Shown piece after piece: positions 4,676 through 61,051 of a stretch of DNA of 64,000 bases (position 1 is its first letter; every line of letters starts with the position of its first letter). Position numbers and translations under genes: made by a program. Origin of the DNA: Temnopleurus reevesii. Taxonomy: Eukaryota > Echinodermata > Echinoidea > Temnopleuroida > Temnopleuridae. The notes under the pieces were generated by a model. That model was not told where the DNA came from. It saw only the letters and a list, made by a program, of their open reading frames with translations, and made no database searches. The stretch covers positions 1 to 64,000 of the forward strand of contig BQKZ01000763.1 of assembly GCA_036244855.1 (NCBI GenBank). Reading direction: 5' to 3'.

Positions 4676-5025
4676 GGAGGAAGAAAAATACAAAGAAGAA
4701 GAGGTAAAACAGTAGGAGGATGAATAAGAATAACAAGTAAAAGAAGAATAAAGGTGTTGGTGGAGGAGGAGGAGGAGGAGAAGGGGGAGGGGGAGGAGGA
4801 AAAGAAGAAGAAAAGGAAGAATAATGAGAAGAAGCTGAGAGCCAGCGGCAGCAGCAGCAGAATAAGAAGGAGAAGAAGAAGAGGAAGGAGAAGAGGAAGA
4901 AGGAGAAGAAGAAAAAGAAGGAGAAAAAGAAGAAGAGGGAGGAAAAGAAGAAGGTGAAGAAGAAGAAGAAGAAGAAGAAGAAGAAGAAGAAGAAGAAGAA
5001 GAAGAAGAAAAAGAGGAATTGAACG
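4676..5025 (+). repeat. 350-bp purine tract, (GAA/GGA)n microsatellite
   Basis: Almost pure A/G on the plus strand, with pure (GAA)n near 4955-5010. It yields spurious Lys/Arg/Glu-rich and, in reverse, Phe/Ser/Pro-rich ORFs. Such homopurine mirror repeats can form triplex DNA. Confidence 0.9.
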
Positions 5026-5099
5026 GAGGAAAACTGGTTTAGTATATTTTTTATCATAATTCTGTGATATAAACGATGAAGTGTCGACAAATTATCAAT

Positions 5100-8478: not shown

Positions 8479-9013
8479 ATGCCGCCATCGAACGAAAAGA
8501 AGATGTCCGCCATTCTAAACACATCCCAAGAGCCCTGTCTTCACGGGATGAACGGCGGTCCCTACTACGGAACCAAAGTCAGCAAGATGGACGAGCCCGT
8601 ACGACTACGGCGCGAAGTCGGACTCGTAAATTGCGTCACCGTCATCGTCGGCTGCATAGTCGGCTCGGGTATATTCCTCTCCCCGCGTTCCGTGCTCGAA
8701 TACTCCGGCTCTGTGGGCATGTCCCTCGTCGTGTGGACCCTATCCGGCGTCTTCTCCCTCATCGGGGCTCTCTGCTTTGCCGAGCTTGGCACTACCATCA
8801 CCAAATCAGGAGGAGAATATGCCTACATCCTCAAAGCTTTTGGAGACTTACCGGCATTTATTTTACTCTGGGTGACACTTCTTATTATTAACCCCACAGG
8901 ACAAAGCATCACTGCTCTGACATTTGCTAATTATGTTGTGCAACCTTTTTACATTGAATCTGACTGTGGACCGCCTGATATATTTGTTCGGCTTCTGGCT
9001 GTCATGTGCATAA
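8479..9013 (+). CDS. Exon 1A: alternative first coding exon (N-terminus and TM1-TM3)
   Basis: ATG at 8479 is the first in-frame start after a TGA at 8455. The exon encodes 178 residues plus one base and ends at a strong donor, GTAAGT, at 9014. The reading frame runs on into intron for 55 more codons, but transporter similarity stops exactly at the donor. Residues 1-45 are hydrophilic (cytoplasmic N-terminus), followed by hydrophobic TM1 with [15 protein letters not shown]2 with [16 protein letters not shown], and TM3 with [14 protein letters not shown]. Cys163 sits in SDCGPPD, the position of the conserved heavy-chain disulfide. GC content of the exon is much higher than its flanks, with many third-position C/G in its first half. 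Met9 is a possible alternative start. Anything 5' of the ATG is probably UTR or promoter; I see no clear TATA box. Confidence 0.9.
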
Positions 9014-10142
9014 GTAAGTATTTTATTCATATATATATTTTTTCTTCCTTCCTTTTCCTCTTCTTATTTTCCCTTTCTTCTTTTCCCTTATCCTCCACTG
9101 TTCTTGCTAGGTTGATCCAAGTACAAACAAATTTATTTATGTGCAATGTTTTCCCCTCAAAATTATTAATAACATGATATAAACTATTTCCCCCAAATAA
9201 AGTGGGTCATGGACAATAGATCCGACGGTAAGCCATGTATTGAACTGTGCCGACACAACAATAACAAACCGGTTACAATTTGAATAGCATTACAAAGGAG
9301 CATTGAATTGACGTTCTAAAAAAAATTATTCGGAAATAGATTATATCGTGTGTAATGAATAATTACGCGCGCACAGTGAACAGTCTTCAGACTTCAGCAT
9401 TTTACGAAGATTTATAATCAAGAATTAAATCATTTTCTAAATTCTAATCTTCGAAATATTATGTTCATTGTAGTCATGACGTCAAACTCTATATACTTAG
9501 AGGAGGGTTCAACAATGAATACATGGCATTTGCATGTTTTATGTTCAGATTTAATCTTTTCCTATTTCACTATAATGCGCTTTTCCACTATACCATTAAG
9601 CCTAAATCATTTTCTAATCTTCGAAATATTATGTTCATTGTAGTCATGACCTCAAATACTATACTTAGAGGAGGATTTAACAATAGATAATGGCATTCGC
9701 ATATTTATGTTCAGATTTGATCTTTTCCTATACCACTCTAATGCGCTTTTCCTCTAACCTATATGCCTAAATCATTTATCTAATCTTCGAAATATTATGT
9801 TCATTGTAGTCATGACGTCTCTAAGAACTCTGTTCTTAGAGGAGGATTTAATAATAAATACAATGTACATGGCATTCGCATGTTCAGATTTAATCTTTTC
9901 TTATACAACTATAATGCGATTTTTGTATGGTGCAATATCCCATGAATCAACTTTATTCCGAGAAAACGCATCTACTACAGCCTCGGCATATCGGGAATAT
10001 TCAGAATCATTCAATTCAAGGAGACAGGGGATTTTACTGCAATAAATTCGTTATATATACCGTTTAGTGCCTATACAATATCCAACCATGTTGGGCTCAA
10101 CAAATGTCTGTATTCTTAGAAATCGCATTTGGAGTGAGTATT

Positions 10143-10191
<49 letters not shown>

Positions 10192-13100
10192 TGGATAGAA
10201 AAACACAGCAGTGAAATATTGTATGAATATGAATACAATTATTTATATAAATTAATTTAAGAGTAAAATTGTGTTGGGGGGGATGAAAACTCGTTTTCAA
10301 TATATTTTCATTAGTGAAAATTAATTAATGTAGACTGTCAAGAAATTGTCGAAAAACAAATAAGACGGATATGAGAGGAGAGGAAACTTGTGTGGCTCAG
10401 TGGGAGAGCGTCTGCCTTATGAACGTGAGGTCGTGTGTTCGATCCTCGGCTGAGTCGTACCAAAGACTTTAAAAAAGGGACAATATGCCTTCTTATCAGG
10501 CGCTCGGTATGGAGAAGGGTAATAATAACTTTCGTTTATGCAGGGCCCGCTGGAAGGACAGCTCACAGCTGAGAGGGGCTACCCTTGGTAAATAAGAGAT
10601 ATTATTATTATCATTATTATTGAATATCCTATTTCTTGATTTAAACATTTTGGTTCTGTGATAACAAAATGTGATTATTTAAGGAGTGGTGGTCCGCATA
10701 TTTCTTTTTTTTATATATAGATACAAGAAAAGAAAAGAAGTATGTGATTATCTTTCAATTGCATGGATCCTAAACTAAAGCAAAAACAAGTTTGATCAAA
10801 TTAGCAACTTAAGAAGCGGAAATATAAAATAGAGAAAACAAGGAGATTAGCTGCATAAAAGTACACGACGTGAGACAACATTAGAAGTCGAAAGTTAGCA
10901 TGGGGGTATTTTTATCCACTTTTACGTTACATTAAACAAGGACTAAATATGCGTTAATCAGAATGGATCGATTGCTTTTGTGGTAGATGAAAATAGCCAG
11001 GCATGTATTTTTTTCTTCAATTGTTTAATGAATAACGTGGTATTATTACCATTACGATACAAGAAGGTATAAATACATTGGGCCCGGTCATTTTGGTGAC
11101 GTACATGTTCGAAAATTTTAAGTTACACACATTGAGAGAGGAGTATGAAGAAAATTAAAAAAGTGGTCGAATTCTCCTTGAGGAGAAAATAATCCTTAAG
11201 TCTCTATTTCCTGAAATAACAAAGGATTAGATTAATGTATTTTAACGTTAGATTAAGCATGAACAAAATGTTCAATATGAAATACAGTTGATTGTGGCTT
11301 ATGTTGCAGACGGAAATAGCATGAAGGTTTGTTTTTAATTCTGAAAACAACAACAGTAACGTCATGTTATGGTTATTCAGTTTGTTTTCAGATTTCGAAT
11401 TGCAGGAATTGTCGATACTGAATGATTAAATGATTTTTGGAAGAGTTCCGTTTCTCTGGAGGATCGAGAACTTTATTTGGGAGTAAACATCATTATATTT
11501 TCCTAGTTTTTTTTAATGGAAAACTTCTTTTTTTTAAATATCTGATTCGAATTCCATTTTCCCTTGAAATTGTATAAGGAAATGTATTGACTTGGTTTTG
11601 CTTTTATTACATGTATCTGGTTATATTTAAACTTTTCCCGAGTTTTGTTGATGGAAAACATTTTATCTGACTTGACTTCCATTTTCCCTTGACACTAAAA
11701 AGGAAATGTATTGACTTGGTTTTACTTTTACCGACATCTATAAATAATACTGATGCCTGGTATAATTAAACCTACATATTATGTACACTTTAAAAACTCA
11801 AAATGATAAATGCACATTAAGGTTGGGGTATATAATAACGGCCAACCTTTCCAGAATCGTAAATTAACATTTAAAATATGTTAGATTCAACTTTTAACGT
11901 GTTGGATTTACAAAGGTAAATCTTCACGAAAAATCTTTAAATCTTTAGGCATACATTTCAAAATTTTAATTTAGCATTTGATTTTTTTTATAGTGTAACA
12001 TTTGACTAGTATCTCAATCTATAGCCGGAGTGACTTGTCTCGTCGCTGGCTCAATTGCCCTTTTCGAGATCTAATTAATTCAGAAAATCATTTGAGTATA
12101 CAAACATGTAGGCCTAACCTTTGTGAAAGCAGCGATTATTTTCGACTTTCAATCAGTATTCCGGATTTACCCGATGGCCAAATTCGGTCGATCTTAAGAC
12201 CGACTCACACCTTTGCCTTTTTAGCCTGCATCGGACCTGCGTTTTTGAAAATCAGAAACGCTCTCTAGACGCACAAAGACGCAGGCCATACGTTGGATCG
12301 ACGTTCGGCGTACGCTCCTTCCTTGAGCGCAAGCCGAACGTCAGTCCGCCGTCTGATCCGCGTATGCTGTGCGTCCAGGGAGCGTTTTTAATTTCGAAAT
12401 AAGCTGAGTCGACGCAGGTTAAAAACGCAAATGTATGCGGAGTCGGCCTTATAAGGCTGATGATAAATTACTTTCCCACAACCCTGTATCCAATGTAATT
12501 TCCAGCAAAGTTTCCTGTTGTTTGACAAATAACCGAACTGGGTTAATCGTCATTATTTCCCAACAATTAATTAATCTATTATCAAGCTAAATGCCACGAA
12601 ATCCATATTAATGAACAAAAGGATAATTGCATTGTCTATACTCTTTCTAAAGAAGGGTATAGATACTAGTACAACCCGTAATTATTGCTCTGAAATATTG
12701 TCATCATCTTTTTTATGTTTATAGTTTTGTTAAAAGTCATCAAGTTTCAATCCATTTTCACTCATCTAAATATTGATTTTTTTTTTTAATTACGGTAGCT
12801 GACCAAGTACTCACCTCAAATACAGTTGCAAATTCATCTAACTGAATTTGGATTTTAAAGCGTTATCATTCAATACTTTCAATATCATTCAATATACGCA
12901 AAATATAATCACAGGTAAACCATTTAGCAATGTTCATTAAAAAAATCACGATCATTAATTGTGGAAGAGGAAGGAGACATTTTGAAATGTGGTCCGATTA
13001 TTTGCTTTTTTTATGGTCCTGAATACTCAATTTGGCATTTCATTTGTTGCGATGTCGTTCATGCATGTGAGATCAACATACCTTTAGTATTCATCATATC

Positions 13101-13378
13101 TCTTTGATGCTGTATTTTTTACTTGGCAAGAAACCAAAATCTCGTAGATTTGATGAAAATGATGATAATGGTAATCATATTCCTATTCATGACCACCTTA
13201 TTAAACTCAATTTCGGCATACTGTATTAATCTCTTGCTCTTCATGCTCTTGGCGCCTATTTTCATCCTCTACCTTTGCAGCAATATATCACCTGTTCAAG
13301 TGAAATTGTGCATGTGTGTGGTGTGTGGGTGTGTGTTTCAGTGTATGTTTGTGATGTGTGGGTATGATATGTGTTTGT

Positions 13379-13412
<34 letters not shown>

Positions 13413-16400
13413 AAGCGATGTGTTTACAGGGATGAAATATTGTCTTTGTGTAATTTGATGTGGGTTTGTGTGTATGGATGTGAGATTTGTATGTGCATCT
13501 ATGCGTATGTATGTAAGTAAGTATGTGTATATGTGGTATGTGTCAGTCTTTTGCATCAAATATTCTTTTCAAAGCATTTTGATTGTCTTTTCCTAGCTTT
13601 TGCAATTAGCCAGATTATATCTTTTTGTTATTAAAATGTCACTGCCTCCATGCTTATTTTCTTCTTCATCAGATTCTTATGCTAATGCAAATTTGAAACA
13701 AACGATTATGTTCATTTAAAACTCAACAGAACAAAATATACTTGTCTATACCCTTGTCCTTACAAGAGTAAAGTTGTGTCTCGGTTCACAAACCGTTTTC
13801 TTTGGCTCCGACTCTGAAATGTCCTTTTGTCGACCTGGTTTAGCGTGAACTTGGACCACTGATCGCCTCATGGTTTAACCATGTGATACTGTCTCAAGAG
13901 TACCAACGCCCCCTTCTTACCCCCAGCCCACCCCACCCCCTCGCTCATCGTAAACCTGTTAGAACCATGGCGGATCCGGTGGTCATGGGGGGGGGGGGGC
14001 GGAACTCCTTTTGACACATTAAAATACATAGCGCCTAACATTTACTTTGTCAGTCGTCCCCATAAGCGCTCTACAATGTAGCATAATTACCCTGGCTTTA
14101 GCAGTGCAGCTGTAGGTAATGCGCTGCATTTAAAGGAAAAAATATCCTGCCAGGTACCCATTCACCTCGCCTGGGTCGAGTGCAGCACAATCGGGTTGAA
14201 TTATTTGTTGAAGGAAATTAACGCCATGGATGAGACTCGTACCCTCAACCATCTAGTTGAAAGGCGAGAGTCTTAACTACTACACCACGACACCTCCATA
14301 TTTATTTATGTGCTTGTTATTTTTGCTGCTCAAGGCCATCGGTAGTCTTACGGACCGTCTTTTGAGGGAATAAAGAACTCTTCTTGTGCTTCTCAAATCA
14401 TCGATAGCCCCTTGTATTGATAAATTCTGGATCCGCCCGTATGATAAACTTGCAGTCTGGCAAGAGTTCAAGGTGAAGGGAACTTATTTAAAAACTAGAT
14501 TGCTCTACACTGCTGTTGTCATTGATCCCATTCTTACTCTACGATGAATCTTGGCTGCCCTTTCTGTTTTTTAATTGACCAAGGTGATGCTACTATTTGA
14601 CTTGGCGTACATCAGTCCCACACACTCAGAATGGATGCATGTTTGCATTCTCATCGCAAGTAAATCACGACTGCGGAGTTATCCACCATGATAAGAAACG
14701 GACAATGCTTTTGTACAAAGTAAACAACTTAATTCAAGCATTCACAATAGCTAAAAACCCATAAAAGAAATTTAACTCCCTCTAATTATGTGGAAATATG
14801 ACGAACATGCGTCGCACAATGAATAGTGAGGGTACTTGCTTTTGTGTTTACAAATGGATCTAGCTATTGTGAATTAATACCAGACTGAAGTTGTTTAATT
14901 TGTCCAATATTCTATGTCCCGACTGCTTATGGTGATCTCTTGGTCGGGATGAAATGTTTTGATTATGAGCTGTACCACGTGATCTAGCGTCAATCTCTCG
15001 TCCATTCCTCCTCCAGTTTATGGAAGCTAGATGCATGTATATGTCGGACTCATGCCAACGAAGATGGGATGCATAGATAAAGCGCTCGACTGCGTAATAG
15101 ATCGGACAAGAATAGATTGATGCGTATATTACCGACATATCCAGTACCCCACTCCTCTCACAGATTGATGTTGAGATGCCGCCGTCCCCACCATATTCGA
15201 TAGATGAATGGCTGGGAGCTTCATTAAATTTCAGATGTAAATATGTATTGTGCAGTTGATTAATTCTTATGCATTTTAGCCAATAATGAATAGTTCTCAT
15301 ATATATTTTAGGGGGAGGACAGGTATTAGGCAGCCATAGGTGCAATCCAATTTAGGACTCTGATGTACTCTGTAGTTGAGTGCTGTATGAGAATATGCAG
15401 ATATGGGTGCTATTAGAACACCGAGTCCTCAACTGGACTACCAAAGCAGACACCAACACAAAATAATGATCATGGTTATAAGATGAAAACTCAACTGCCA
15501 CGCCCCTTTTAAAAATGTATAAATATCAATAAGAATGTATTGCTATCATCATATAATACTTATTGTAGGATATTATAATAATCAGTATGAATATTAAAAC
15601 GTAGAAATTAAGAGGGGCATGCTTGTACGCACTGTTGTGTATTTCATCAATGTTAGGAGGAGTTACCAGGTGTAGAAGTATGTAAGGAATGATGATGACG
15701 TATATTGTATAATTACCTGGTAGTTGATTAGTCCCGGCATTGTACTCCACAATGACCGACCATAAATTATGAATTATATACCTCGTTTTTATTCTTCTTG
15801 TCTTTTGATTTTTGATAATGCTTAATATAGCGCTTAATGTTATAATAAATCTCTATGCGCTTGACAATTATTTAACACAAGTTACAATAAATAAAACAAT
15901 AATTTAGATAGTACTCTATTATTTTTTTAGGAAAGTGGAAATATTATATAAAGACATATGTAATCTTCAATATATCATGATCCAGAGTGTCATGAAAGTT
16001 CCTCTTACATAAGCAACTAAGTTTACACAGATTATGACTATAACTTACAATTCAATAAAGTATTACAATACATTTATATCAGTGTATATAATGTAGTAAT
16101 AAATGTTTTTACCACCGAACAATAATCATGATAATCAGAATTAGTCATGATTGAGGAAACAAGTTTGAAATCAAATGTAACAAAATCCAAGATTTTGAAA
16201 GCCCGACAATTATAGTGGTTTCGACTGTTTGCTGGTTTTAGTGCCCCCCGCCCCGCCCCCACGTTCAGCACGACCAGACATTATAGAAACAATGTATAAT
16301 ACAATATTCAAAAGGATAGACATACATTTGATGATAATTAGTCGATAATCCCTGAGAGTGGAAATGAAATATTATTGTTAAAAGGTCCGTTAACATAACT

Positions 16401-19400
16401 TGTCTGAATTATTTTTTCTCACTCTAACAATACATGTATGTTATTACTTGAACTTGAACTTTTGTGGAAAATAAAGTTGAACTTATTTTCACATATTCTG
16501 CATTCAGATTTTGAAAATGTAATTTTTGCATTTATTCTTTCCCCTGAATATCGAGAATGAGACTGCCTGGTTCCTCGAAAATGTTGATGTCCTACGTGTA
16601 CCTCCGATGGAATTTTAATTTTTTCTATATGAACAATTCATCAAATTACAAATGCAGCTAATTGCATTCCATTATACAGTTCAGTTGTCAATGGACCACT
16701 ATCATGACTATGAATGAAACTTCATCAGATTAAGCGATTATCATTAATAACCGAAATTATATTTGAACATATGAAATTAAATTTGGTCGCATGACAGAGC
16801 CTTATTTGTATTGGAAAATCATGTTATGGCGGTTTGTGAATTTGAAACATTTGGTCCATGTTGCAAGGAATGGTAAGATGTTGCAAGGGGATGAATAGGA
16901 GAGAGCTCACATCTATTTGCCCATTCCATAAATATGGGCAGCATTTGAAATAATTTCAGGTTCCCATCAACGAATTTATAGATCTAATACAAAGAAAAGC
17001 TTTACTTTTTATTATTTATTTATTTTTTCTTTTTACTGAGAGTAAAATGAATCTGGTAAGAAATAAATGAAAATAAATTATTTTCCTCTTATCCCGATAG
17101 GTATATATGGAGAATAATTTGTTCAAACTAAATTATGCGCGCAGTTTTCTTTATTCCTATGAGCAGGTAGTGAAATAATATCACATCCCTTCTTAAAAAA
17201 AAACACTTACCACCTCTGTTCAATTTTGCTTGAATATCCGACGTATTAATAGCCATGATAGTTTATGAGAGTACATATATCAAGGCTGGCTCGTCATTTC
17301 GATATGTTACCATGGCAATAAGAGATCATTGTGTCGCACTTTAGAAGGTGAAACTTCTTGAATCTAGACGGCGTTCAATGTTAACTTCACACATGCAAGT
17401 TCTTAGATTATTCTTTGTTTTAGTTCAGGCCACCATATGGTACATTGTCATTATTTTGATAATAATGAGTCTTTTGGGCGTAAGTATATAGTCAGGCCTA
17501 CATGTATACCGTTTTGCTAAAATAAACGTGACATTTTAAATGGGTGCTTAAAGCATATTTTATGGAATGCATTTTGGTGTGCAAGAAGATCCCCTTTTCA
17601 CCAAAATTGGAGCATTTTATAATCTGACTATGAAAGGAAGGATATTAATGATCTACAATGTAGCGAAATGAAAATAAACCAGTTTTAACCGCGGGTAAGC
17701 TGAACCATGGACGTAGAACATCCAACGATTACGACAATTTCTATTTTAATGCAGCTGGGGGATCAACATATATTCTCAGAAGATATTGGTTCATACATCA
17801 ATCGGCCTTGCCAAAATTACCAGCAACTTAAAATGTTCTTATTTTATTGAAAGTTTTAATGGCCTAATTAACTTGCATGACGCTGCAGATTACTATAATT
17901 ATTATATTATATTATCATGTAGTATTACGGTGGTTTCCGGAAGTGTTGGATTTCATGGTTGAAGTAAAGCCTTATCTTCTTCTTTCCTTATCTTTCTCTT
18001 ATCTGTATTTCACCGTCATATTTGGTAAACTCTGTCTCTTATACCATTCCATCTACCTTTAGCTTATCTTCGTATTATTTTAGCTCGATCAATTTGGCTA
18101 TTGTCTCAATTTCTTTTGTATTTATTGTTGTTTTTTGGCCAATTTTCTCATTTGTTCATCTTAAAATTACATTCGTCTTTATCGTCCGCCATACTATCAT
18201 CTTCATCTTGTGAACAGCTTTATTTATCTCCATCTTATATAATACTATCCTTATTTTAATCTTTCCCTCACCAGGGGGCCTGTAACATAAAAGAGATACG
18301 ATTAATCTTGCAATTAATTGCATCTCTTTGGTACACATTTTCCGTAGACTTACGATAAATATTTATCGTAAGTATAATTGCATCTTTTATGTTACAGGTC
18401 CCAGATCACATAAATGTATATCTTAACCTTTTTTGTATACCGTTTTATGATTAAATCGTATGTTCATTTCACCAACTTCACCCTTACCATTACTTTAATC
18501 TTATCTCATATTCACCAGCACCTTAATTTCACCTTCAAATCACCATCACCTTAACTTTATCTTCATTTCCACCCACTCCAGAATCCTCATTTTGACTAAC
18601 AACTTCATCCTATTTCTTCTTCCCGCCATCATCTTCACGATGCATTCCATTTTACCATCATGGTGAAACTTCTGATCCATACTATTGATTACGAATCACC
18701 TTTTAAGAAGAACTTAGCCTTGAATACTTGACTCGTATCCATAGTGATAGATATCGACCCCAACGATATCGCACTTTTGATTTCCTTTCTGGTACTCTTT
18801 ATATAAGGATAAACTAGACCGCTAATGGAACGATGAATTGAAATTAAAATGGGATAATAATAAATGATCTTTTAAAAAAAAATGACAATTTTGGTCATTT
18901 TGACAAACATGTGCTGCTTGCACTAAGAATGAAATACGACAGTACACTTTACTTCAGGATAAACTAGACCGCTAATGGAATGATGAATTGAAATTAAATG
19001 GGATAATACTATTTGATCTTTTTTTTAATGATGTAAGGTGATTTTGACAAACATGTGATGCTTGCACCACGAATGAGATACGACAGTTAAGGGCACGTGA
19101 ATGGATGTAATAGATATGAGAACGTCGTAAAATGTATTGCTTATTAATATTTATTGTACCCCTAAAAGATGGGAAGATGGTATCCAAACAAGTATGAATT
19201 TTTAATAGATTCCATTTTTTATGTGTACTTTTGTCAATCAGAGCAAATTTTAAACAACGTGGGAAAATATCCCCACCCGATGTAACTTCTTATCTAATGT
19301 GGGAAATATTTATAGGTTTTCACATTCAATTTCATATTCCTCTCAAGCAATTTTACGATTCGATAATTCAATTCCATCGATAAGCACGTACTGCGCAAAA

Positions 19401-22400
19401 GTTGGATTGTTTTGAAAATAGATTGAAATAATTGGGAAAATCTTTTGGTGCCCAAAATACTTGTTTTTTGTGTCTTATTTTCGAGAGGATGTGGGGTATT
19501 AAAAGGCAATAATGATTGTAAGATTTATTGTTGCTAAAATAGTCAAAAATTGATATTTATTGTGGTAAAAGAGTCAATGTTTGTTTATTATTTCATCATT
19601 GATACTTGCAATATATTCAGCTTCTTCTTCTTCTTTGGTTGGATTTGTTTGGCGATCAGTCATCATTGACTATTTTCGCCACAAAATTACGTTTTTATAT
19701 TACTTTTTATGTACATGTATGATGTACATGTACAGAGTCTTGAACAAAGACTGTACAAAGCGAATGATATGTTGGGCAAGCATTGATTCAATGTGATCAG
19801 GTGATGGAAGGGGTAGCATGCGTGCCAGTTAAATGGATGTTTCCATTGAATAGGGGGCCAATTTCTGATATGTTAGTGTCCCTGTTACATAGTACACTTA
19901 TACTTAAACGCATGGACCGGTGGGCTAATTGGTTAAGATATAATAGAGAAGTGAGATTATAAGCTAATTATTGATCAGACATTGCACCCACGATTAAACA
20001 CCATCCTAAATTACATCCTCACCAAGCCCGGGGGGGGGGGCATAAAAAATGTGGATTAACCAAATAGATCACTCCTTTATCTATTTGGATTAGATATAAC
20101 GGAAACAAAGGTGTCACAAACTGGCCTCTTATGTAAAGAAACACGAAAATACCGTTTTGATACACCAGAATAGGCTTTGTGTAGTGAAGTTTGATAGTGA
20201 TAATTTTTTTAAACATTCTGGTGATGGGGAGGCGAAAGGCAGCGTGACAAAAGTAAACCCGGCCGTTCTATTTACCAATACATTCCATAGTATCAACAGG
20301 AGTAACTTAATTGTTCGTTTGGAATTGGCCCACAGGTAGATACAAAGGATATATGCACCAAGGATCAATATTGATTATGTAACTTTTTGAGAAGGAGCAG
20401 CATAGGCTTTGTGCCAAGTCAGTGGCGTCTCAGTGTGTGTGCTGTGAATGAAAAAATGGCCCCTTTGCCCATGTGGTGACCTTTTACGTTGAACCTCTTA
20501 ATGGTACAACTCAATACGTGTGTTATCCACCTAAGACGCCATTTCTGATGATAATTTCCGAAGTATTCCTCTTCTTGAGGCTTATTCTCAAAATGCAAGT
20601 TCATCAATATGTTCTTGAAAATTTTCCTCAATATATTCTACTAATCTTTTTCTTAAAGCAGAATATTCTTCATTTTTCACGTGTATTATAAGGAGATGTC
20701 ACTCAGAGCATTACACGGGTTTCACGAGTCAAAACAAACGTCTTTCAGAAAATGCATATTACATTCCTTGAAGTATGGGATACGAAAGAAATCAAATTTT
20801 CATATGGAATTTCATCAGTTTGCCTCAATTTCAGAGTTTAGAATGCTTTATTACATGAGTTGCATTTCTAATTACTTTGATTATTTTGTAAAGTGTTCCT
20901 TACTCTCTTAATTAGCGGATATTTTTCCAATTTATCATCCGAAATTAATGTCCATATCTATAGTTATTTAAATACAGAGTTATTGGATAAGCAGTTTCAA
21001 CAATTCTCTTGAATTATATACAGAGTTATCAAACATTAACTGATTTATAATATTAGGATATAATAAAGTAATTGCCATATTGGTAAGTCGGAATTTCACG
21101 TAAGATTATCGTAATTTTATGGATTTATGTACATTATATTCTCAAGTGTTAATTTGTAATCAAAATTATTTTTATAATTGCTATCAATCAAAACGAGTAC
21201 TGCTCTGATTCATAGCCTCTCTGAATATTTTCTGAAAACTGTCAATCAATGAAAATCTATATGATCTAATTACTATGTTGGTGCATGTGTATATACAGAA
21301 ACTATAATGGCACGCGAGATTCACACGGAACTGTATAGGATTGTGGTAATGATCCAGTAATATTTTTAAAAATGTTTCATTAAAAGATTATATTTAGGTA
21401 CATAATAAGAAATTAGATGGTAGCTATAAATCTATCTAACGATTTGTCATTTCTGAATGGTAATTGCAATGCACATTATTGTTTCCGATTTCATTTTTAT
21501 CCAGGAAATAAATAATAAAGCGCATGGTAAAGTTCATAAATCGGTTGATTAATTCCACCAAGGAATCATACTTCTTTCACTTTGCCCGAGAGTCCCCGTA
21601 TGTATAAGTCACATGTCATATTTGAGATATTTGTAAACATCAAGGTTTTCATTTTTGGCGCGTTTTGATTCTCGTTGTGTTTACATTCGCTCATCCATTG
21701 CACGGGGCACGCATTCCTCTGAATCGCCTTTTCCAGACCGGTTATTTCTACTCGAAAACTTCCCGATAATAAACTTGTTCCATTTTCCTCGCTTTGGTGA
21801 ACATGAAAAGATTCGATAAGTCAAAAGCTGAAAAGGAATTTTTAATGATTTTCTGACTTTTGTAAATTCCATTCATCTTTTGTTAGCACGCATGGAACCA
21901 CTTCGCCTATTTGCAAACCGCACTAAAGCGGTCTGGTTTGGGCCAGGTATCAACGACATGTGACATTGCGCGCTTTTTAATGACACAAATATTTTTTTCT
22001 TTTCTTTTTTAAGAAAGTGACGAAAATATATAGCATTTGTGGATTTTATGGTAAATATCGTGGATTTGCCCTAATAGGCAAATTTAGGGAGCGAATGCTA
22101 CATGTACTCCACGGAAATTGTATATGCTTCAAAGGTTTCAGACATGAAAAATAGGATTTTTTTCAATATCTATATTTAATATTGTCTTCATTTTATACTG
22201 GAACGACTTTGAGGGAAGTAAGTTGTTATACACTTAATATCTTCGTTAACCTGGTTAATTTGGTCGAAAGAATACTTTTTTTTCTTTTCCTCGCTCGTAG
22301 ACTTTAAAGCAAATATTTGAATGATTTGGGAGTCACGATCTTGTTGTAGCAAAGCCCATTTCTCAGTATGATTCAGAAGCATTAGCAATTATCAGATTAT

Positions 22401-25400
22401 TATCTCGTTATGTCCTCGTACTAATCTTTCAAATTTGACTTACAATAAACTTTCATAGTCACGTGACTTGATATGTCCCATTTACAGTTTTACTCTCTAC
22501 TTAGTTTCATTACAAAAATATAAACCCTTCAAATGAGCTCAAATTTGAACGATAGTCTTTGTAAGAACGTCAATTCTTATCCATTTATTGGCTAACTTCT
22601 TTGAAATTGATTTCTTATTTTTGTATTTAGTGATAATGTGGTGACACAAACATTTTTAGAATTTGCACTTAATTTTTATTTTCTTGACCTCTAAGACGAA
22701 TGTTTATCTTTCTTCATTTTGTGTGATATTATTTTAAACACTAATTAACTCTTTTATCTGCGTTGATCGACTAGAATTACTTCGCCATTTTGGATCAGCG
22801 GTTTGAAACATCCATTATGGATGATATAGTCATTCTTTTCAAGTAGACCAAGGTTGAAACAACCTCAAATAATTGATTTCAATTCACAAGAAACAAAAAA
22901 TGTACTGTCTCTCCTAAATCAATACTAAGATGTTTTATATGCCTGTCTAGTCTGTAAATACTGATGATCTAAAGACATTTACATGCATATAGCGGGTCAT
23001 ATACGGTACGGCATTATGTTGATATAAGTATTATTTTTTATTACTTTAATTTTTTTCACATGTTTGGGCATGATGAAAAGAATACGAAAGCAACATGCTA
23101 ACAAGCCTAAATCAAGTTTATCAATATTTTGATGCCAACGTCAGAAAAAAAAGAACTTTTGCTGACAAGCAAAATCTTTACATCTGAGTGTAATTTGGTT
23201 TTGTATAGTCTCACAATGTAACACATCATATTTTTAGATTTCTAAATATACAAGGATCCATGACCTCTGCTCAACTATCAGTGACTATTGCAGAGTTAGA
23301 AATGTAATGCCATTTTCATATAGGTTGCAGAATTTTAATATTCTGATAAAGCGACTTTCATGATCTGATTTTCAATAATCAACCCTACATTTAGGGGGAT
23401 CCCCTGTCCCACACCCCTTTTTGGTCGCTTCGCTCCCTCTCATTGCCCCTACCCCACCACCCCGCAGGGGTTCGGCCTATAATTATAAATACGGTATCTG
23501 GAGATTCACATCGTCACATCACGAACTGACTGTAGCCAAAGAGTTTTGAATTGTTGCCATGTCGGGATTTTTTGTCTTCATGCAACAGTACCATCTAGCT
23601 ACCTTCGTTCCATGGAAAAGGGACTATACCGTAATTATGTCTCTTCTCATTACACACCAGTCATTGTTCAGAAAATGTCTCCTTCATGGTCTGATTTGAA
23701 AAAAATCTCCCCGCCTCCCCCTCTCTAAAAGTCATGGCTATTATATTGATTCAGATTCCATTTCCATTAATTTCATGCACATGCTCTTGAAATGATTTTT
23801 TTTCATTACTGCCACGTCTTTTTCAAGGGCGCAACATACGTCCAAGGAAGAGCCCGTTCTAACAAAATGATTTTACCACCCACTATAGCATCTTCATAAA
23901 TTTAACCCAGTGACAACCGAACTCTATCACTTTATGCAGAGCCTTCCCTGTTCGAGTAGTCAATGGGTTAATTCCGTGCATTTCCCAATCGAATGCAACA
24001 TTTAGTCATTACTGTCACGTCCCATTATACATATTTATTCCATCTTTATTGTATGGAAGCAGAAATCATATCAAAGACCCTTTCACATAATACGTTAAAG
24101 CCAGTGTTAGGCGAGCGTTAGTTTCTCCCTTTTCGTTAAAAAAACAAAAAATATATTCGTTTACAAGCTCTTCATTTTTGCTGATCTACGTCCCATGGTT
24201 TTATTAGTTAATCCTATAAGTGATTTAAATTTATTCACGTTTCTTGCCAACGAAATTTGTAGCGTGGTATTCCTTAAACCTGTTTTTTAAGTGTGTGTGT
24301 ATTTTTTTTTTTTGGGGGGGGGGGGGGGGCTNNNNNNNNNNNNNNNNNNNNNNNNNNNNNNNNNNNNNNNNNNNNNNNNNNNNNNNNNNNNNNNNNNNNN
24401 NNNNNNNNNNNNNNNNNNNNNNNNNNNNNNNNNNNNNNNNNNNNNNNNNNNNNNNNNNNNNNNNNNNNNNNNNNNNNNNNNNNNNNNNNNNNNNNNNNNN
24501 NNNNNNNNNNNNNNNNNNNNNNNNNNNNNNNNNNNNNNNNNNNNNNNNNNNNNNNNNNNNNNNNNNNNNNNNNNNNNNNNNNNNNNNNNNNNNNNNNNNN
24601 NNNNNNNNNNNNNNNNNNNNNNNNNNNNNNNNNNNNNNNNNNNNNNNNNNNNNNNNNNNNNNNNNNNNNNNNNNNNNNNNNNNNNNNNNNNNNNNNNNNN
24701 NNNNNNNNNCTTTCAAGTGCAATCCTGACCAGTCTCCTGCATGTGGCATGTATGGTAAATTGCCATAATCTCTTGTCGGTTGAGTGTTGAGTTGCACGTA
24801 GGCACTTCCCTGCAGGCAAAATGTCACGAAGTTAGACCTCACTACCCGTCTCCTCTGCATCTGGTATGTTTGCAGCTTTCTTCGAATGTAAACAATGCAT
24901 AATGAGTCTCCAAATCCTCCTCGATTTACGAGATCTATTCGGTTTCATCAAAGAAGAGTTTGAATTTGAATCTTGGGTTTGAAGTATTTTTGTGGAATAA
25001 ATTAATATAAATATATTTGTATATAGTTTATATTTACTTTGCCAAAAGAAATTCCAAAAAAAGGAATGATAGTACTATTGGGAGGGGTGGATCCAGGATT
25101 CTGAAAGGGGTACATGGACATTAAAGGAGAAGCTCGAACTGGTATTTGTATTTTTGTACTTTATTTATTTTATCACGGTAAATAAACCTGCTATCAGCTA
25201 GAAGCTGTTTAGGTGATCATTGAAGGTTTGAATACGTGTAGGGGGTCTGGGGTGCCATTCCCTAGGGGTTTTTATATTTATTTATTTTTTTAAATCTAGA
25301 TGACTTTAAACTTGATTTACCGGCTGCTGAGATGTGTTCTTGTTTTCACAGAAGTTGAATCCGTAAAGTAAAACACTATTGCCTTTGTTACATGATTAAT

Positions 25401-28400
25401 TATCGGTATATGCTTTCTGTGATATGTCAAGATAAAACCCGATTACAAACGAATGGGTGGCACCATGGAAAAGTAAACATAGAAACGTTTTTTTTTTTAT
25501 AATTACATATCGAATGAAAATAGGCAACTAATTCATCTCGATATTCCACTTTTTCGTCTCAAGAATTTCGCATTTATTTTGGTTTCCAAAAAGGTATTGT
25601 CTGAAACATCCACATTTTACCGATATATACCAAATGTTATATTTCATACCACGGGTCATGGCTTGTTTAGGGAGTTTAATTCATGTATACTACCAACTAG
25701 CCAATGCATTTTGGGGTGCCTCAGATACCCTTTAAACAAAATAATGAACCCATCAAAATTTGTAAAGAGCTGAACTTTTGTTGGAAATATTACCATGATA
25801 TACAATGACGCATCTAACCACCGCGGAAGCATTCGTTTAAAAGCCTGCGTCACACCTTTGCGTTTTTAGCCTGCGATGGCCTCGCGTTTTTGGAAATTAA
25901 AAACGCTCCCTTGAAGCACAAAGACGCAAGCCATGCGATGGACTGACGCTCGTCGCACGCTCGTTGAACGCAAGCCGAACGTCAATCCACCGTCTGATCT
26001 GCGTATGCTGTCCGTCAAGGGAGCGTTTTTAATTTCCAAAAAAGCTAGGACGACGCAGGCTAAAAACGAAAAGGTGTGACGCAGGCTTTACTTGTACCAC
26101 CATTTGACATTGGTTCGTGTCCTTATTTGGTTAAAATTATTAATCATTACATTATGCTATGCCATGCATGGAGGCTTTGGGGGAATGCAGGTCATTGTCA
26201 AACCACACTGCTGGATTTTGATAATTTAATTACCGCGTAACGGTTCTCATTAGAGATGAATAATGTAATTATCAGTGGTTGGTGCCCACGTATACTTGTT
26301 ATCAAAAGCTCCTTACAGATTCCTTCATAGGTAGCTGCAAAGCATGCGAATGTAGAATCTGAACAACCACTGATACAAACTTAATAGACGTAACTCGAAT
26401 ACTAATACCGGTAATGTGCATCATTATTAGCCAAGCATGATTGTATTTATTATATTAGTAAACTCATATTTATTTTTTATGGACTCCTGTTTATTTTGGG
26501 CGAATTCAGTGGGGGAGGGGTGAGAGCTGCCGCGTCCACCCTATTGACGATGCCGAGGGAGTGTCATAGCTTTTTCGTTCATTGAGGACCTTTTTTTTTT
26601 GCTGGTCAGGAGATGAAAAAATGTCCACCCCCATTATAAAATCCTGCATTTTGTGCAATAAATTCTGCACTTAGTGTTCAGAGGCTCATGGAGTAAACTG
26701 TGACGTAGGTCTATATGAACTTTCCACTCTGTTGTTTGAACTGCCAAGTTTGATTTCGAATCTTCAAGGCTTACGAGCCAGACAGGAGCATTAAGACTGA
26801 CTCACACCTTTGCGTTTTTAGCCTGCGTCGGCCCAACGTATTTGGAAATTAAAAACGCTCCCTGGACACACAGCATACACAGATCTGATGGTGGACTGAA
26901 GTCAGGCTTGCGCTCAACGAGCGTACGCCAAGCGCCAGTCCACCGTAAGACCTGTGTCTTTCTGCGTCGAGGAAGCGTTTTTAATTTCCAAAAACGCCGG
27001 GCCGACGCAGGCTAAAAACGCAAAGGTGTGAGTTGGCCTTAAGCGATCTCTGTATCGTACACCATCGTGTAATACACGATGAGTCAATAACACGAGATAC
27101 ATTGACAACATTGACATGTTCAAACGCTAAGCATTTTATTATGGGCCAGCGCCCTATTGCATACAAAGTTTTTTTTTTTAAACGCAAGTTAGAAAATTAA
27201 GCGCAACTAAAATTTCAACCGATCATGAATGTGTATTTACCACTTGCGTATAATTTTCTCAGTTGCATTTAAACGCAGTTTTAATGTAATAGGGCCCAGG
27301 ACCCCATAACATTAAGATTTCTAATCAATCGTATGATTGTTATGGGAAATGATACACTGAAGAATAAATCTTGCGATCAATTGCAAATCTTTTTTTTTAC
27401 ATGCATGCCTTAGAAGCTGTAATGAAAACAAAAACAAAACAAAGCATCAATATCAAATAAGCAACAGAACATCGATGACGACAACAACAATGAATCAATG
27501 ATGATGATATTAGAAGTTTACAAACAACCAAAGAACAACAACAACTTAAAACAACCACAGTACATTACATTACGATGTTCTTATTGTGCAAACCCTCTAA
27601 AGATCGAGAACATAAGAACTATAGTTTATTTCATTTACATTATTTTAGATTTATTTCTGTATTAAAACCACAAATTTTATTCCATGTTGGTGTTATATCA
27701 CAACCAAGTTCGAATATAATTATTTCCTGGTTCTGAGTCGATGTGAAATTTACGCGCTGATTATGCAGCGCATCATAACAATAATAATATTATCAAGATA
27801 ATTATTTAATAAAAATAATCTTGATAACAACGGCACAAACAACTGAAACTGAATAAAATGCATATGAATTGCGGAATCGAATAACATAAGAACATTTCAT
27901 AATACATGCATTCAGTATATGAGAGCAATTATCATAGATCATAATGATAAACTTCCTGCATTGTACAACTTGCATTTGGCACATATTGTAATACAGACTG
28001 ATTACCGACACAATTGCGTTTCCAAGAAACAATGGCTTCCTAATACCGTTTCGTGCTGGAGGATCACATTCTATTTTCAGTGCTATTCAGTCGCTCAAAT
28101 GCACTATTCAGAAACATATTTTTGTCAATAGCATATTATTTTCATCAGCAATATGGACTAGGTAATAGAACTATCTTTTGCTCAATTTAATTACTTGATA
28201 AAAAAAAAAAATTATATTTGTATTGTGAGTATCAATGTTCATGTCATCATCTTTTTGTCGTTATTCATTTTTTTTTTTGGGGGGGGGGGGGGAAGGGGAG
28301 GGAGTTTTTTTTTTTAAATAAATATTTTGTAACTATTCTCAACCTATAGTACCATTTAGGAAGAATTTAGTACTTCCTCAATCGAAAAAAATGTAAACAA

Positions 28401-31400
28401 CCGAGAGTAAAAGCACAAGCCCTCACCTAAGCGCAGATTGTTTATAAATATACGTTTTATTTTGAATGTGTGATTTATATGCAGCCTATAATGCCCCATT
28501 ACAGGTCAGTCTGAATGCAAACATATCGTTTCTGTACACGTAAATCACCTCCAAGACACGACTTGAGCCTTTTTACACACAACCATATGGCATCCCCATC
28601 CCTGATAAAGATAAGTGGCTACTACGATCATTGTGACGTTTGCTGACGTCACACTACGAATTTCATTCATAAAGTCCGTCTAGTCTTGGGACACAGAACA
28701 TTGGTTTGCGGAGCTGCAATTTGCCGGGGCAGTAAAAGTGTGTAACTTGTGCATTTGCGATCCACGGAATTTATACACAAAATTGAAAGAAATCAGAAAG
28801 TAGTGAAAGTGTTCTCTGAATGCAGACTCTTGATTACGCACCATGCACATTGCGGAAAAACCGAAGCCGAGAGTCTGCGCCTACAGACTAAAAACTATTT
28901 GTGTAATAGACTTTTATCCAGGCGGTCAATCGCTCAAATACTAATGACGAGCGGTCGTGACGTAAGCAGTGAATAAAACTGTCGTTGCTTGTTCACGAGA
29001 GGGCTCACTGCAATAATTGCATCAGCTCAGAATGAGTTCTCAACATCGTACCTAGCTCTTTATTTCCACATCTTCTTTCAGAATTTTTGAGAAATTGATT
29101 ATTATTTCAAGCCGAAGGATCCAAAATTCATTTAATTGTAAAGGAAAATCCGCTGCAATAACGAGACAAATTTTGATGTTCATGAAAATTTATTTTAGGT
29201 GATATGAAAAGTCAACTGTACTTTTCTTATCACGTTTTATGGTTTACATAATGATAAGAATGCGATATATGGCTCTTGTATTTGTATTTGACGAGGAAGT
29301 CTGAATTTTAGCATTCTCGGTTTTATAGGACCTGTCAATGCGTAGGCGGCAAATGTTCGAACAAAAAAAGCCGTCAAATTTAATATTGCAAAAAATACTG
29401 TCTGAAAATGTTTTAGTATTTTCATTTTCATGTTAATTTTTTAGTATCTTTTATACTCGAACGGAGTCATTTATTTTACAGTATAAAAGTATCCTAAAGA
29501 AACCCTCTTTCTTCTTTGGAGAAGGGGGGGGGGGGGGGGTGGCGTTGATTGCCTGGTGCAGAACCAGCGGTAATTGAATATACCTGATACCCCTGCTTGA
29601 ATGTGGTAGGCACTTCTTGGTCTCCGGCGGGACACACCGCGCATGCGCAGACGGAATTCTTCGCTGGATTTTACGAATTTCTACCGATGCGAATGTAGAG
29701 GCAAATTTGAAAGGAAGCGAACGTACAAAGTGAGATGAATGTAGGAGAAGGTGAAGCGAATGAAGAAGGAGGTTTTAGAGAAGTTAACAGGGTATTCTTT
29801 TTAAAGGAGTGGAAGCGGTCAAAGAATCCAAAAAGCTTTATAAAGCTCTTTGAGAATCACGTCCGTCTGCGCTGCCTATGAAGGTAGCCTATACATCCGC
29901 ACGCGGTGTGTCCCGCCGGAGACCAATAAGTGCCTACCCTTGAATGTCAAGACAGTCATTATCTGTCCTTCTGTGACAAATTTTTTAGCTCTGTCTGTCC
30001 CCATTCAATCGGAACAGAAGTGAGGGCGACGTGGAGAGGGAGGGGGAGGGGCGAAGGGGTGGTTTGCGGAGCTAAATCGATGGATAAGGCCTGTGACACT
30101 GTGGTAGCTGTACGATTCCAAAGGGTGCATGGTAACGGAATTACGTGCTATTTTAGCTACATTTTTAGACTCTCAGTGCAAAAAGAACATGATGTAAAGT
30201 TAGCCACAAGAGAATGTCGATAACGGAATAATTTGCCATTTTTTATCATGAAATAGTCAATACTTTTACTGAATGATTTAAAGATATATCAATGTACTAT
30301 AATTATACTTTTGTCCAATTATCCACGAAATGATGTCTATGAATTATAATTAAAAAAAAAAACAAGAAAACTGGGGAAACTTATAGATGTTGTTTCCTTC
30401 AGATTTTCTGCATAACGTGACCGTATAGCTTTTACTCGGGTCATATAGAGTTTAACAGAAACGTCTTGCATCTTTACCAATATTTATTCAGCCCTGGGAA
30501 ATGTAAAAAATAAAAGCTATTAACCTCACCTATTCTCACGTTCAAAGATCATCGGAAGTGATTGGCAAACACTATTAAAACATTTAAGATCCTGTTGGTG
30601 TTTTGAGATTAGATTATTATTTTGGGACATCGAGAAATGTAAGAACAGAGTTTATCGAAAGTTTAATAGATCAAATGCCCGAATTTATTATCGTTTTGAG
30701 TATTGAACTTGGGTAAGATGGAATTTTGGGGAAGACTTCTACAGTGACAATCTCAATTTTTTATGAATTTTCAAGATTTTACCCTCATCTGCATGCGAAG
30801 AAAAAAAAAGAGAAAGAAAAAAAAAAAAAAAAAAAAAAGAACCCCAAATAAAAGGGGGGGGGGTGGAAATTCAGACGATGTAAAGAAAGAATATAGGTCG
30901 TACTTGCAAATGATGATATGACAACCCCCATTTAGAAAGTCGAATAGGCACTGGTCATATTGTGGTAGATAGGGGATGAGACTGCCTGCCGAACCTTGGT
31001 CACTGAATAAAGAAGGAAAATACGAAAGTATAAATGGGAATCAGAAGGATTGGGGGAGAAGAAGAAGAAGAAGAAGAAGAAGAAGAAGAAGAAGAAGAAG
31101 AAGAAGAACAAAAGGAAGACGAATAGTAAGAAAAAGAAAGGGAAGAAGAAAAAAAAAACCTGCTTACCCCTTTCAAGCTATAATTAGTGCCCCTTTAGGG
31201 TTCAGAGCCCTATCCAGCTCGACTGAAGGTAAGAAGGTCGTCATGTTTAGGTGATTGTACTTTACAGAGCTGACTCTGGTCTCAGACAGTTTACTTGTCC
31301 AGTTGTCTTGTTGCATAAGAGTCATACATACCATAGACCTACCAACTTTCATAATTTTAAGACATGAAGCTATAAACGAACCATTTGATACGTTTGTTCT

Positions 31401-34400
31401 GTCATTCAGTCGAAGATCAATACTTATGTGAAATTATTTGTAATCTAATTTTATCAAAACGACTGGATTTCAAGTCCACACGTTTGACCGCAAAGCTGTC
31501 TGAATTCCGCGCCCATTCAAACCGTGTGTAGTATATTCATATACGGAGATTGTTGTGTTGACAAATCGTACTCAATTTGTACGCGCCATCCACGTGGCTC
31601 ATTCATTCATTGATTTTTGTCTTATCGCCGGGTCAAACATTTCCGCTTTGCTACAGATAAGAACAGTGATTTGTGTTGTTGGACAACCCCATCCTAGTGA
31701 CCAACGAAAATCATATTTAGTCTACGGAATCGTCCCAGAATTTGCCATATTTTCAAGAAGTATCTAGAGTGACATTTGGCGACATGGTTTTAGAGAGTGA
31801 TCAACCGGGAGGAGGCGATGCTTCAACAGCTGTGTCGCAGCCGGGCGGAGAGCAGAACGGCAAGGAAGACCGCGCCCAAAGTGACGGGGACGCAAGCAAC
31901 GACAGCCGCATCGCTCTGAAACCAGAAATTGGTCTTTTCAGCAGCAGTACGATCATCGTCGGCTGCATTGTCGGATCGGGAATCTTCCTATCGCCGAAAA
32001 GTGTCCTCGACAATGCCGGGTCGGTTGGAATGTCCATGATTGTGTGGGTCGTATCGGGGATATTTTCCCTGATCGGTGCGCTGTGCTTCGCCGAGCTTGG
32101 GACAACTATCCCCAAGAGTGGCGGAGAATATGCCTACATCATGGCGGCATTTGGTGATCTTCCAGCTTTCCTTTTGCTCTGGGTAACCCTGATCATCATC
32201 AACCCGACTGGGCAGACGATTGTAGCTCTAACATTCGCGTACTACGTCATTCATCCTTTCTACCCAACCGAGGATTGCCCGCCTCCAGATCTTTTCGTGA
32301 GGCTGATGTCCATTCTTTGCCTTGGTAAGCAAACAAATCTTGGACCCGACACGGAAATTTTGATAAAAAGTTATTCTTTGAATTGATATCAAATGCAAAG
32401 CCCACTGGTTTGTGATATCATGATAATCATGATATTTGGTGGTGGTGATGATGACGATGATGATTTTGGTGAAGTGATGATAATAAAGCGAGACTAAACA
32501 TTTGTTGTGATGGGGATTTCTTGAATGATGATAATGATGATTATGTACAGTATGCCAATATGGACATGATGATGATGAGGATGATGAGGATGGTGGATAG
32601 GTCAGATTATTCCGATGTTATTTGTTTTTCTATTCTAGGCCTTCACTGTAAATGCTTTGCAAAATGTGATGTAGTCTCGTAGACCATTGTCGATGATTAA
32701 ACATTGTGAAGATAAGAATATCGGATTCATGGATTGTTTGGGTCACTGCACTTTCACTTTGAATTGCATCATCCTTGATGTATGGGTTAGGCTGTTACAT
32801 TAATGTTGCCAACCTTCTACCAGCAGAAAGGAGTGGGTGGGAAATTAAAGGATATATGATTTATTAAATGCCGATCTGTTCAGTTGAATGTTTTAGGGAA
32901 GGTAGGATGGAAAACGGCACCCCCACCCCCCTTTCATGTGTCTAGTGGAAGAAGCAGAAGTTGTGGAAGGCGGGGAAGTAGAATAATGAGAAGATGGATG
33001 ATGAGGAGAGTGATGATGAGAAGAGTAAGGAGAAGAAGGAGGGCTGGAGAATACTAGGAAAGNCCCCCCCCTCTTTCATGTGTCTAGTGGAAGAAGCAGA
33101 AGTTACATGTCTGGAAGGAGAAGTAGTAGATTGGGAATGGAAAAAATGGATGAGGAGGAAGAGAAAAGCAGAAAGAAGAAGAAGAGGAAGATGGTGAAGA
33201 AGAAGAAGGAGAAGAAGAAGAAGAAGAAGAAGAAGAAAAAGAAGAAGTAGTAGTAGTAGTAGCATCAATAGTAGTAGAATTAGAAGAAGGCGACGAAGGA
33301 TGAAAATGGGGTAAAGAATACTCGATAAGGGTGAAGAAAGAGATGGTGGAGAATGTAGAGGATAGACATAACTTGCTCAAAATGACAAGCATTCATTTAC
33401 TGTAATTTTTTATTTTAATTATTAAGTAATAACTAATTGTGTGTCATATGTAGGTTGCTGTGTCTTTAGAGGGTATGGGTCGGTTCTTTTGAAGCGGCAT
33501 CCAGACGAAAACTGAATATCTAACCCAGTCAAAAAAAGTGAACGTGTAAAGATGTTCGTACACCGTTTTATATATCTTGGCTGGAAGACTAGTATGAGAA
33601 GGCCAAACCTACTTGTATTGACAAGAGTGCCTGTAATTAAGATGCCATCACGTTGTGAATTACCTTGTTACATCATCTGTGGTACATTAATGTTGATACC
33701 AGACTCGAGATCAAGAGGGGCCTGTTATACACACGCATCAAATTCAATTGATCTTATATAATAGGCGGGTTTAGTAGTACTTTTTAGTAGGTGCAAATTT
33801 TATGTCTTCGGCTATTTTTGTACAAACCAAAAGCTGTCCAAGTCTAGCCTGTTATAGAAACAAGGTATGCAAGCTTATTCAAGTATTTATTTGTTTCTAA
33901 CAGGTTCGATGTATATCGAATTGAATGAAATATCCAAATTATGAACATTTGTTCGCACGAAACGTTCATTGATTTGAAACTTTTAGTAAATCGGCATATT
34001 ATTAAAAATCATTAGGATTAGTATATGTTCTGATTTCATTTGATTTATTCGTTAGTGCAGTAGAAAAATTCATGACTGGAGAACCCAGAAAAGCCGACAA
34101 GGCTTATTTCCAATGGGGTATCGCCTAACCACGTGAATACAGTATATACTTTGTTGTTATATTGTCATCATATTTTTATTATCGTCATGTCACACGCCTA
34201 TGATGATTTCAAGGAATTAAGGAGATAGGCGTGCTATTCAGTCTAAAAAGTTCGTTTATTGACATTCAAGTTTCAGTCCTCTAAAATGTTGCTTCCTCCC
34301 AAAGTGAAATTGTAATAGGCTAGGATGAAGTTACATGTGTTGATCGATTTATGATAACCTTCAGCCCATGTATGTATCGTCGGAACACAAAGGAGACCCT

Positions 34401-60954: not shown

Positions 60955-61051
60955 TATGTTAACACCGCTGATGTTATTCCATACCGCACGGTATATATAC
61001 ATCGGACAAGACCAGTTGGTGTCACCGTAAGCAGAAGGGACAAAGGTTTTT

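Follow-up and report, generated by a model that had tools for sequence, protein, structure and literature searches.

In UGT1-type gene clusters, every variable exon is driven by a promoter of its own and joined by splicing to a set of constant exons, and the available sections of PMC1885805 call the organisation of Ugt1, Gcnt2 and Ugt2a vertebrate-specific. The fly LAT1-like gene mnd produces transcripts that, in the accessible part of PMC11352668, differ only in the 5' untranslated region (UTR) and come from separate start regions. Here we describe a locus in a 64,000-nucleotide stretch of sea urchin DNA, Temnopleurus reevesii contig BQKZ01000763.1 (assembly GCA_036244855.1, positions 1 to 64,000 of the forward strand; this whole stretch is called the window). 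As judged from its sequence, the locus very probably is a single gene for an SLC7 L-type (heterodimeric) amino-acid transporter, in which nine constant exons follow two variable first coding exons, 1A and 1B. An initial interpretation of the letters alone (the sequence-only reading) had proposed two alternative first exons on one shared transporter core, and this proposal is supported by our gene model, by the single core in the window and by the isoforms of other species.

The gene model was built with a human LAT2 sequence as the probe, and the splice sites were picked by eye. Its exons and the gap between the two first exons are given below (TM, transmembrane helix); exons 4 to 9 are each drawn from the human LAT2 probe, the splice sites and the gene model.

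8479..9013, plus strand: alternative first coding exon 1A (N-terminal tail of 40 residues, TM1-TM3, extracellular loop, start of TM4; phase-1 donor)
24332..24709, no strand: assembly gap of 378 N between 1A and 1B, seen as a run of N
31784..32324, plus strand: alternative first coding exon 1B (unrelated N-terminal tail of 42 residues, same transmembrane region; phase-1 donor)
38030..38155, plus strand: shared exon 2 (remainder of TM4, and TM5)
42129..42225, plus strand: shared exon 3 (contains a Phe that aligns with gate residue F243 of LAT2)
44223..44267, plus strand: shared exon 4
45160..45283, plus strand: shared exon 5
46251..46354, plus strand: shared exon 6
47057..47153, plus strand: shared exon 7
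52183..52332, plus strand: shared exon 8
52966..53143, plus strand: shared exon 9
53694..53755, plus strand: coding part of shared exon 10 (stop codon TGA at 53753-53755)

Exon 1A runs from an ATG at 8479 to a final base at 9013 (GCATAA/gtaagt, 535 nt) and exon 1B from an ATG at 31784 to a final base at 32324 (GCCTTG/gtaagc, 541 nt). Both donors are in phase 1, and the coordinates first proposed for the two exons proved exact. Exon 2 starts at 38030, preceded by ttctgcag. In-frame stop codons lie upstream of both ATGs, at 8455 for 1A and at 31718 for 1B; all ten possible introns have GT-AG ends, and the reading frame is kept in both joins. The open products contain 505 residues (1A with exons 2-10) and 507 residues (1B with exons 2-10), and they have 326 residues in common downstream of the exon 1/2 junction. 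The gene occupies 22 kb of the window from 1B to the stop codon.

The two first exons share 99 of 138 residues from VRLRREV/IALKPEI to the junction, so that the 97 of 131 counted at first was correct and equals this figure without the first seven residues. The N-terminal tails are a different matter: the similarity score between the first 40 residues of 1A and the first 42 of 1B was reached by 274 of 500 shuffles, so that by score they are unrelated. Between 1A and 1B, the proportion of differing nonsynonymous sites (pN) is 0.19 and that of silent sites (pS) is 0.82, and the codons differ at 62 of the 99 identical residues. Since the silent sites are saturated while pN is low, this comparison indicates that both exons are held by purifying selection. 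Exon 1A is identical to Lytechinus variegatus isoform X2 at 133 of 138 positions (core, 301 of 326), and exon 1B matches Lytechinus pictus isoform X1 at 122 of 138 positions and another 1B-type protein, P0004, at 123 of 138. On these alignments 1A appears more constrained than 1B and is nearly fixed. The 1A tail is similar in the window, Lytechinus and Diadema (MPPSxEK...LNTSxEPC), and 1B-type proteins begin with a similar tail of their own (MVL).

Searches against the PDB returned SLC7 light chains for both exons, with y+LAT2 as the best match of 1A (6.6e-51) and LAT2 as the best match of 1B (9.4e-51). The closest proteins listed came from the sea urchin Lytechinus (91% over the 1A form); they include P0001, a full-length 1A-type ortholog from this genus, and P0003 is a further full-length ortholog. 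PF13520 scored above its cut-off for 1A, 1B, P0001 and P0003. Among the NCBIfam models TIGR00911 (L-type transporter) was the best by far, at 600.5 bits for P0001 and 599.4 bits for P0003; its curated cut-off of 701.8, which neither reached, is a naming threshold and was not used as a family definition. The AlphaFold2 model of P0001 (34 sequences) had a mean predicted local distance difference test score (pLDDT) of 79.9, with the tail below 50. Its helices, to which TM names were assigned by their order, cover residues 47-62 and 67-74 (the broken TM1), 77-104 (TM2), 121-155 (TM3) and 165-185 (TM4). The first 23 rows of a Foldseek search with this model were SLC7 light chains, with LAT1, asc1, y+LAT1 and LAT2 as the top structural matches (best 8kdg, LAT1, query TM-score 0.82). 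LAT2 C154 is the heavy-chain disulfide cysteine in the accessible part of PMC9618567, and a cysteine stands at this position in both 1A and 1B. Taken together, the locus is predicted to encode an SLC7 L-type light chain, for which assembly with a 4F2hc-type heavy chain and amino-acid exchange are likewise predicted.

The exon 1/2 junction corresponds to residue 177 of P0001, inside the predicted TM4 helix. According to the model, the part encoded by exon 1 starts with the tail and TM1-TM3, continues through the outer loop that bears the heavy-chain cysteine and stops about 13 residues into TM4; the sequence-only reading, which had described a swap of TM1-TM3, was thus right in this part, and the loop and the TM4 residues have to be added. 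The y+LAT-type acidic residue of pocket 1, Asp243 in y+LAT1 and Asp251 in y+LAT2 in the available part of PMC7653941, is missing from the shared core, which has N at LAT2 position 249 and A at 246. Therefore, dibasic transport by this gene, and with it the database name 'Y+L amino acid transporter 2-like', appears doubtful. P0001-P0015 carry this name despite their non-acidic pocket-1 positions (P0004 has no name).

The same architecture is seen in annotated isoforms of other animals. Three protein searches, in each of which the best 120 of thousands of hits were kept, gave 213 different proteins after clustering at 90%, many of them with NCBI names; the isoforms among them are automated NCBI gene models. 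The core was identical at 326 of 326 positions in every isoform pair of Patiria (X1/X3), Acanthaster (X2/X3/X4), Asterias (X1/X2) and Amphiura (X1/X2/X3), and the N-parts of these isoforms were identical at 81-114 of 137-138 positions. The two urchin types, compared between congeneric species, gave a similar picture, with 322 of 326 core and 100 of 138 N-part residues shared by L. variegatus X2 (1A type) and L. pictus X1 (1B type), and 323 of 326 and 99 of 138 by Diadema setosum X1 (1A) and D. antillarum X2 (1B). P0004, of 512 residues, is encoded on a contig of 4536 bases, which probably is a spliced transcript because it is too short for the 22 kb from 1B to the stop codon.

Across the 213 proteins, 24 pairs have an identical end of at least 100 residues. 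By name, five of them are near-identical entries of one species or of congeneric species, and the other 19 are isoform pairs from eight species. In 19 of 19 isoform pairs the shared part begins 326-334 residues from the end, that is, at the same junction, and the upstream parts are homologous yet different in 18; in the remaining pair, Pomacea X1/X3, the N-part is the same but for an insertion at the junction. The non-echinoderm species are the spiders Parasteatoda (X1, X2, X3 and X5, the X5 model starting at TM2), Stegodyphus and Argiope, and the snail Pomacea. Their isoforms with alternative N-parts are P0043, P0120, P0145 and P0202; P0045 and P0086; P0040 and P0129; and P0062 and P0071. P0086 has S rather than C aligned with the heavy-chain cysteine.

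A separate exon set for 1A, the counter-case named by the sequence-only reading, was sought in the window, including by tblastn of the core, which matched exons 2-10 and, in part, additional copies of exons 2 and 8, with nothing further except at E >1. This bears on the idea that 1A is the surviving head of a duplicated neighbour gene, or a misassembly, and is not spliced to the core. The assembly gap between 1A and 1B would allow for it, and the partial exon copies do show local duplication, but no second exon set was found in the window and 1A is more constrained (133/138 with L. variegatus X2) than the core (301/326). Moreover, the 1A and 1B types of Lytechinus and Diadema share 322-323 of 326 core residues while their N-parts differ at 38-39 of 138, which would be unexpected for a separate 1A gene, and we regard this explanation as very improbable. 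A misjoin across the gap is unlikely as well, because both types occur with near-identical cores in Lytechinus and Diadema. Likewise, tblastn of 13 N-parts over the window, including the type of Acanthaster X4, Asterias X1 and Amphiura X1/X2, gave good matches to 1A and 1B only, with no third first exon (others at E 0.2 or worse). The partial copies are as follows.

37831..37911, plus strand: partial extra copy of the exon 2 acceptor and 5' end (exon part from 37854, 89% similar, about 60 coding bases)
51784..51839, plus strand: first of two partial extra copies of the exon 8 5' end, with its own AG in front
51970..52014, plus strand: second of two partial extra copies of the exon 8 5' end, with its own AG in front

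The exon 2 copy was considered as a functional alternative exon and rejected, its similarity stopping after about 60 bases, and it is regarded as a relic. The exon 2 and exon 8 copies retain AG and could serve as decoy acceptors.

No polypyrimidine-AG was found within 300 bases before either ATG by a simple pattern, which can miss weak acceptors. This, together with the separate ATG and upstream in-frame stop of each exon and the type-specific tails with which related proteins start (MPPSxEK in 1A, MVL in 1B), argues against a single promoter from which 1A and 1B would be chosen by mutually exclusive cassette splicing or by trans-splicing. Such schemes would be possible with the introns of 5.7 and 29 kb, but we hold them to be improbable. 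In the mechanism we propose, transcription would begin at either 1A or 1B, with one promoter per exon, and splicing would connect the phase-1 donor of the first exon used with the one exon 2. Being a first exon, 1B shows no acceptor, and a transcript from 1A would therefore pass over it. A precedent for promoter choice in a related gene is fly mnd. Between the two resulting proteins, the variable portion would comprise the cytoplasmic N-tail, TM1-TM3, the loop carrying the heavy-chain cysteine and the start of TM4. In the urchin the main effect would concern where and when the transporter is made and its control through the tail, with the substrate site unchanged.

Several observations weigh against this two-first-exon gene. 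Support for the join of 1A to the core comes from automated NCBI isoform models only, and the position of 1A upstream of the 378-base gap comes from one assembly. Among the matches listed (best 120 per search, clustered at 90%), no 1A/1B pair from the same urchin species was present, and the holothurian and crinoid rows bear no isoform label, so some echinoderms may lack the system. In Diadema the 1B tail shows only a weak resemblance (score 33, whereas L. pictus reaches 98). The raised GC and CpG at both exons may only reflect coding sequence. Some 173-248 bases before the two ATGs the upstream regions share a 57-base similarity, whose score was reached by one of 200 shuffles but also by 2 of 94 other window segments against each (the controls excluded segments that contained simple repeats, N or the two loci). 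Furthermore, fly mnd, with its separate start regions, keeps one protein in the accessible part of PMC11352668.

The sequence-only reading had also suggested that the swap could change the substrate range. TM1 and TM3 do line the substrate site of LAT2 in the available parts of PMC9618567 and PMC7653941. The residues named there are I53, the G55-S56-G57 motif, N134, G246 and F243 (PMC9618567), and N395 together with T86, Y396, Y399 and Y430 (PMC7653941). At the positions of LAT2 I53, G55, S56, G57, T86 and N134, exons 1A and 1B have the same residues, namely I, G, S, G, S and G, respectively. The neighbouring TM3 residues S136T and T138V (LAT2 numbering) differ between 1A and 1B. Over the seven urchin rows, the 1A type (three rows) and the 1B type (four rows) show fixed differences at seven of 138 positions: R37K, N44S, I121L, L128I, G/P near C154, V166I and I169L. 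A changed substrate range is thus not supported for the urchin, since the first-exon contact positions named in these LAT2 passages are identical in both exons and only 7 of 138 positions are fixed differences. We consider it unlikely that the swap alters the substrate range or affinity of the urchin transporter: the location of TM1 and TM3 and the 39 of 138 differing residues, including S136T and T138V in TM3, speak for it, whereas the named contact positions and C154 are the same in 1A and 1B; indirect effects may still occur. Because of the identical contact positions, separate promoters and different tails would be a likelier function in urchins than a substrate switch.

The picture differs in other groups. 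At TM3 positions 131 and 135, differences occur among some alternative exons of spiders, sea stars and brittle stars. Most tabulated rows have N at 131, against V or I in the Acanthaster X4 type, and at 135 the residue is Q, N or H. GTG replaces GSG in those spider alternatives whose sequence extends to TM1 (P0120, P0145, P0086 and P0129).

The history of the exons was followed with two N-part trees, one of 30 rows, from which four long-branched rows had been dropped, and a wider one of 56 rows (54 of the 213 proteins plus the two window exons). Several of the tested groups were named after a first tree had been seen, which flatters their p values. The urchin 1A rows formed a clade (97/93), and the 1B rows a weaker one (84/92 in the 30-row tree, 95/95 in the 56-row tree). 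Window 1A and window 1B as sisters were rejected in the approximately unbiased (AU) test (p 2.47e-5), each grouping with its own type in other urchins, and all seven urchin exons as one clade were not rejected (AU p 0.17), which would allow a 1A/1B split no older than the urchins. The 1A and 1B types appear to have been kept distinct since before the Lytechinus and Diadema lineages split. Acanthaster X4, Asterias X1 and Amphiura X1/X2 belong to a single exon type (100/99), and the seven sea-star exons as a single clade were rejected (p 0.017); it is therefore probable that variable exons already existed before the split of sea stars and brittle stars.

In the 56-row tree, the echinoderm N-parts of this gene formed one clade (100/99) apart from the spider and Pomacea rows, and therefore the echinoderm duplications would be their own. 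The spider alternatives grouped together (99/100) away from other spider exons, and Pomacea X2 stood at the base of a snail group. One clade of the seven spider exons was rejected (p 6.6e-17), as were the two Pomacea exons as sisters (p 0.006, 56-row tree); these rejections may fit old duplications or long-branch effects (the Ptep_X1 branch is 1.19). As a tentative proposal that we put forward with reserve, duplicated first exons for TM1-TM3 could be a recurrent device of LAT diversification, with separate origins in echinoderms, spiders and a gastropod at the same junction. The sea-star, brittle-star and spider exons would then alter the substrate-facing half-site (TM3 131 and 135; GSG to GTG in spiders), so that one core serves several specificities.

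Among the titles and abstract openings of the matches listed from an open library, no variable first exons were described in an SLC7 gene or another invertebrate transporter gene, and the terms 'first exon' and 'isoform' are not present in the main text of PMC5811215. The architecture looks real and recurrent, and it appears undescribed for such a transporter gene in the literature covered. It suggests that a LeuT-fold transporter could be split at a fixed junction in TM4, with one gene offering interchangeable first thirds. The same junction in three animal groups raises the testable question of why the fold tolerates the swap, and the isoforms are natural chimeras for finding the contributions of TM1-TM3 and the N-tail to transport and control. 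Expression studies that count the locus as one transporter may merge distinct proteins.

Other features of the window were also recorded. A palindromic fold-back element of about 130 bases, similar to a miniature inverted-repeat transposable element (MITE), occurs in four copies (36936-37071, 42775-42912, 45859-45990 and 60821-60956), and in the three copies checked the arms are 51-53 nt long and 90-92% complementary. Purine-rich arrays of the (GAA)n type lie on the plus strand at 4801-5076, 30996-31187 and 33098-33280, two of them flanking exon 1B within 1 kb. Rfam and tRNA scans of the window gave no matches.

The closest known cases differ from this locus in distinct ways. In SLC7A2, a gene of the same family, duplicated exons are used alternatively to give CAT-2A and CAT-2B with changed affinity, but these are internal, mutually exclusive exons of a CAT that cover a much smaller stretch, and not LAT first exons. 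Human LAT1, LAT2, y+LAT1 and y+LAT2 have the same fold, GSG motif and C154-equivalent cysteine as both urchin exons, whereas the pocket-1 acidic residue of the y+LATs is missing in the urchin core. Drosophila mnd also encodes a LAT1-like light chain, with transcripts that start in two upstream regions and vary at their 5' ends, but in the accessible part of PMC11352668 its alternative part is the 5' UTR and all transcripts give the same protein. Chelicerate Dscam, with its tandem 5' cassettes, is another invertebrate locus with repeated 5' units, and its hosts are chelicerates like the spiders with variable-first-exon LAT isoforms, although in the available sections of PMC4835542 its products are cell adhesion molecules and not transporters.

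The structure and evolution of the exons, as read from the sequences, fit the multiple-variable-first-exon kind represented by UGT1, GCNT2 and protocadherin. The locus has two homologous large first exons in tandem (535 and 541 nt, both phase 1, 99/138), constant exons 2-10 that occur once in the window, the partial copies of exons 2 and 8 aside, and no acceptor in the 300 bases before each variable-exon ATG by the simple pattern. As in UGT1, GCNT2 and the clustered protocadherins, in the accessible part of PMC1885805, the first exons stand in tandem, are homologous and unusually large, have almost equal lengths and one reading frame, and each could head a protein completed by shared constant exons. 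In UGT1 the variable part carries the aglycone-recognition domain, according to the same part of PMC1885805. Unlike UGT1, there are two first exons in the window, and up to four isoforms in Parasteatoda. Unlike UGT1 as well, the product here is a membrane transporter of the LeuT/APC fold with a junction that falls within TM4, which makes the variable and the constant part interlock as one fold.

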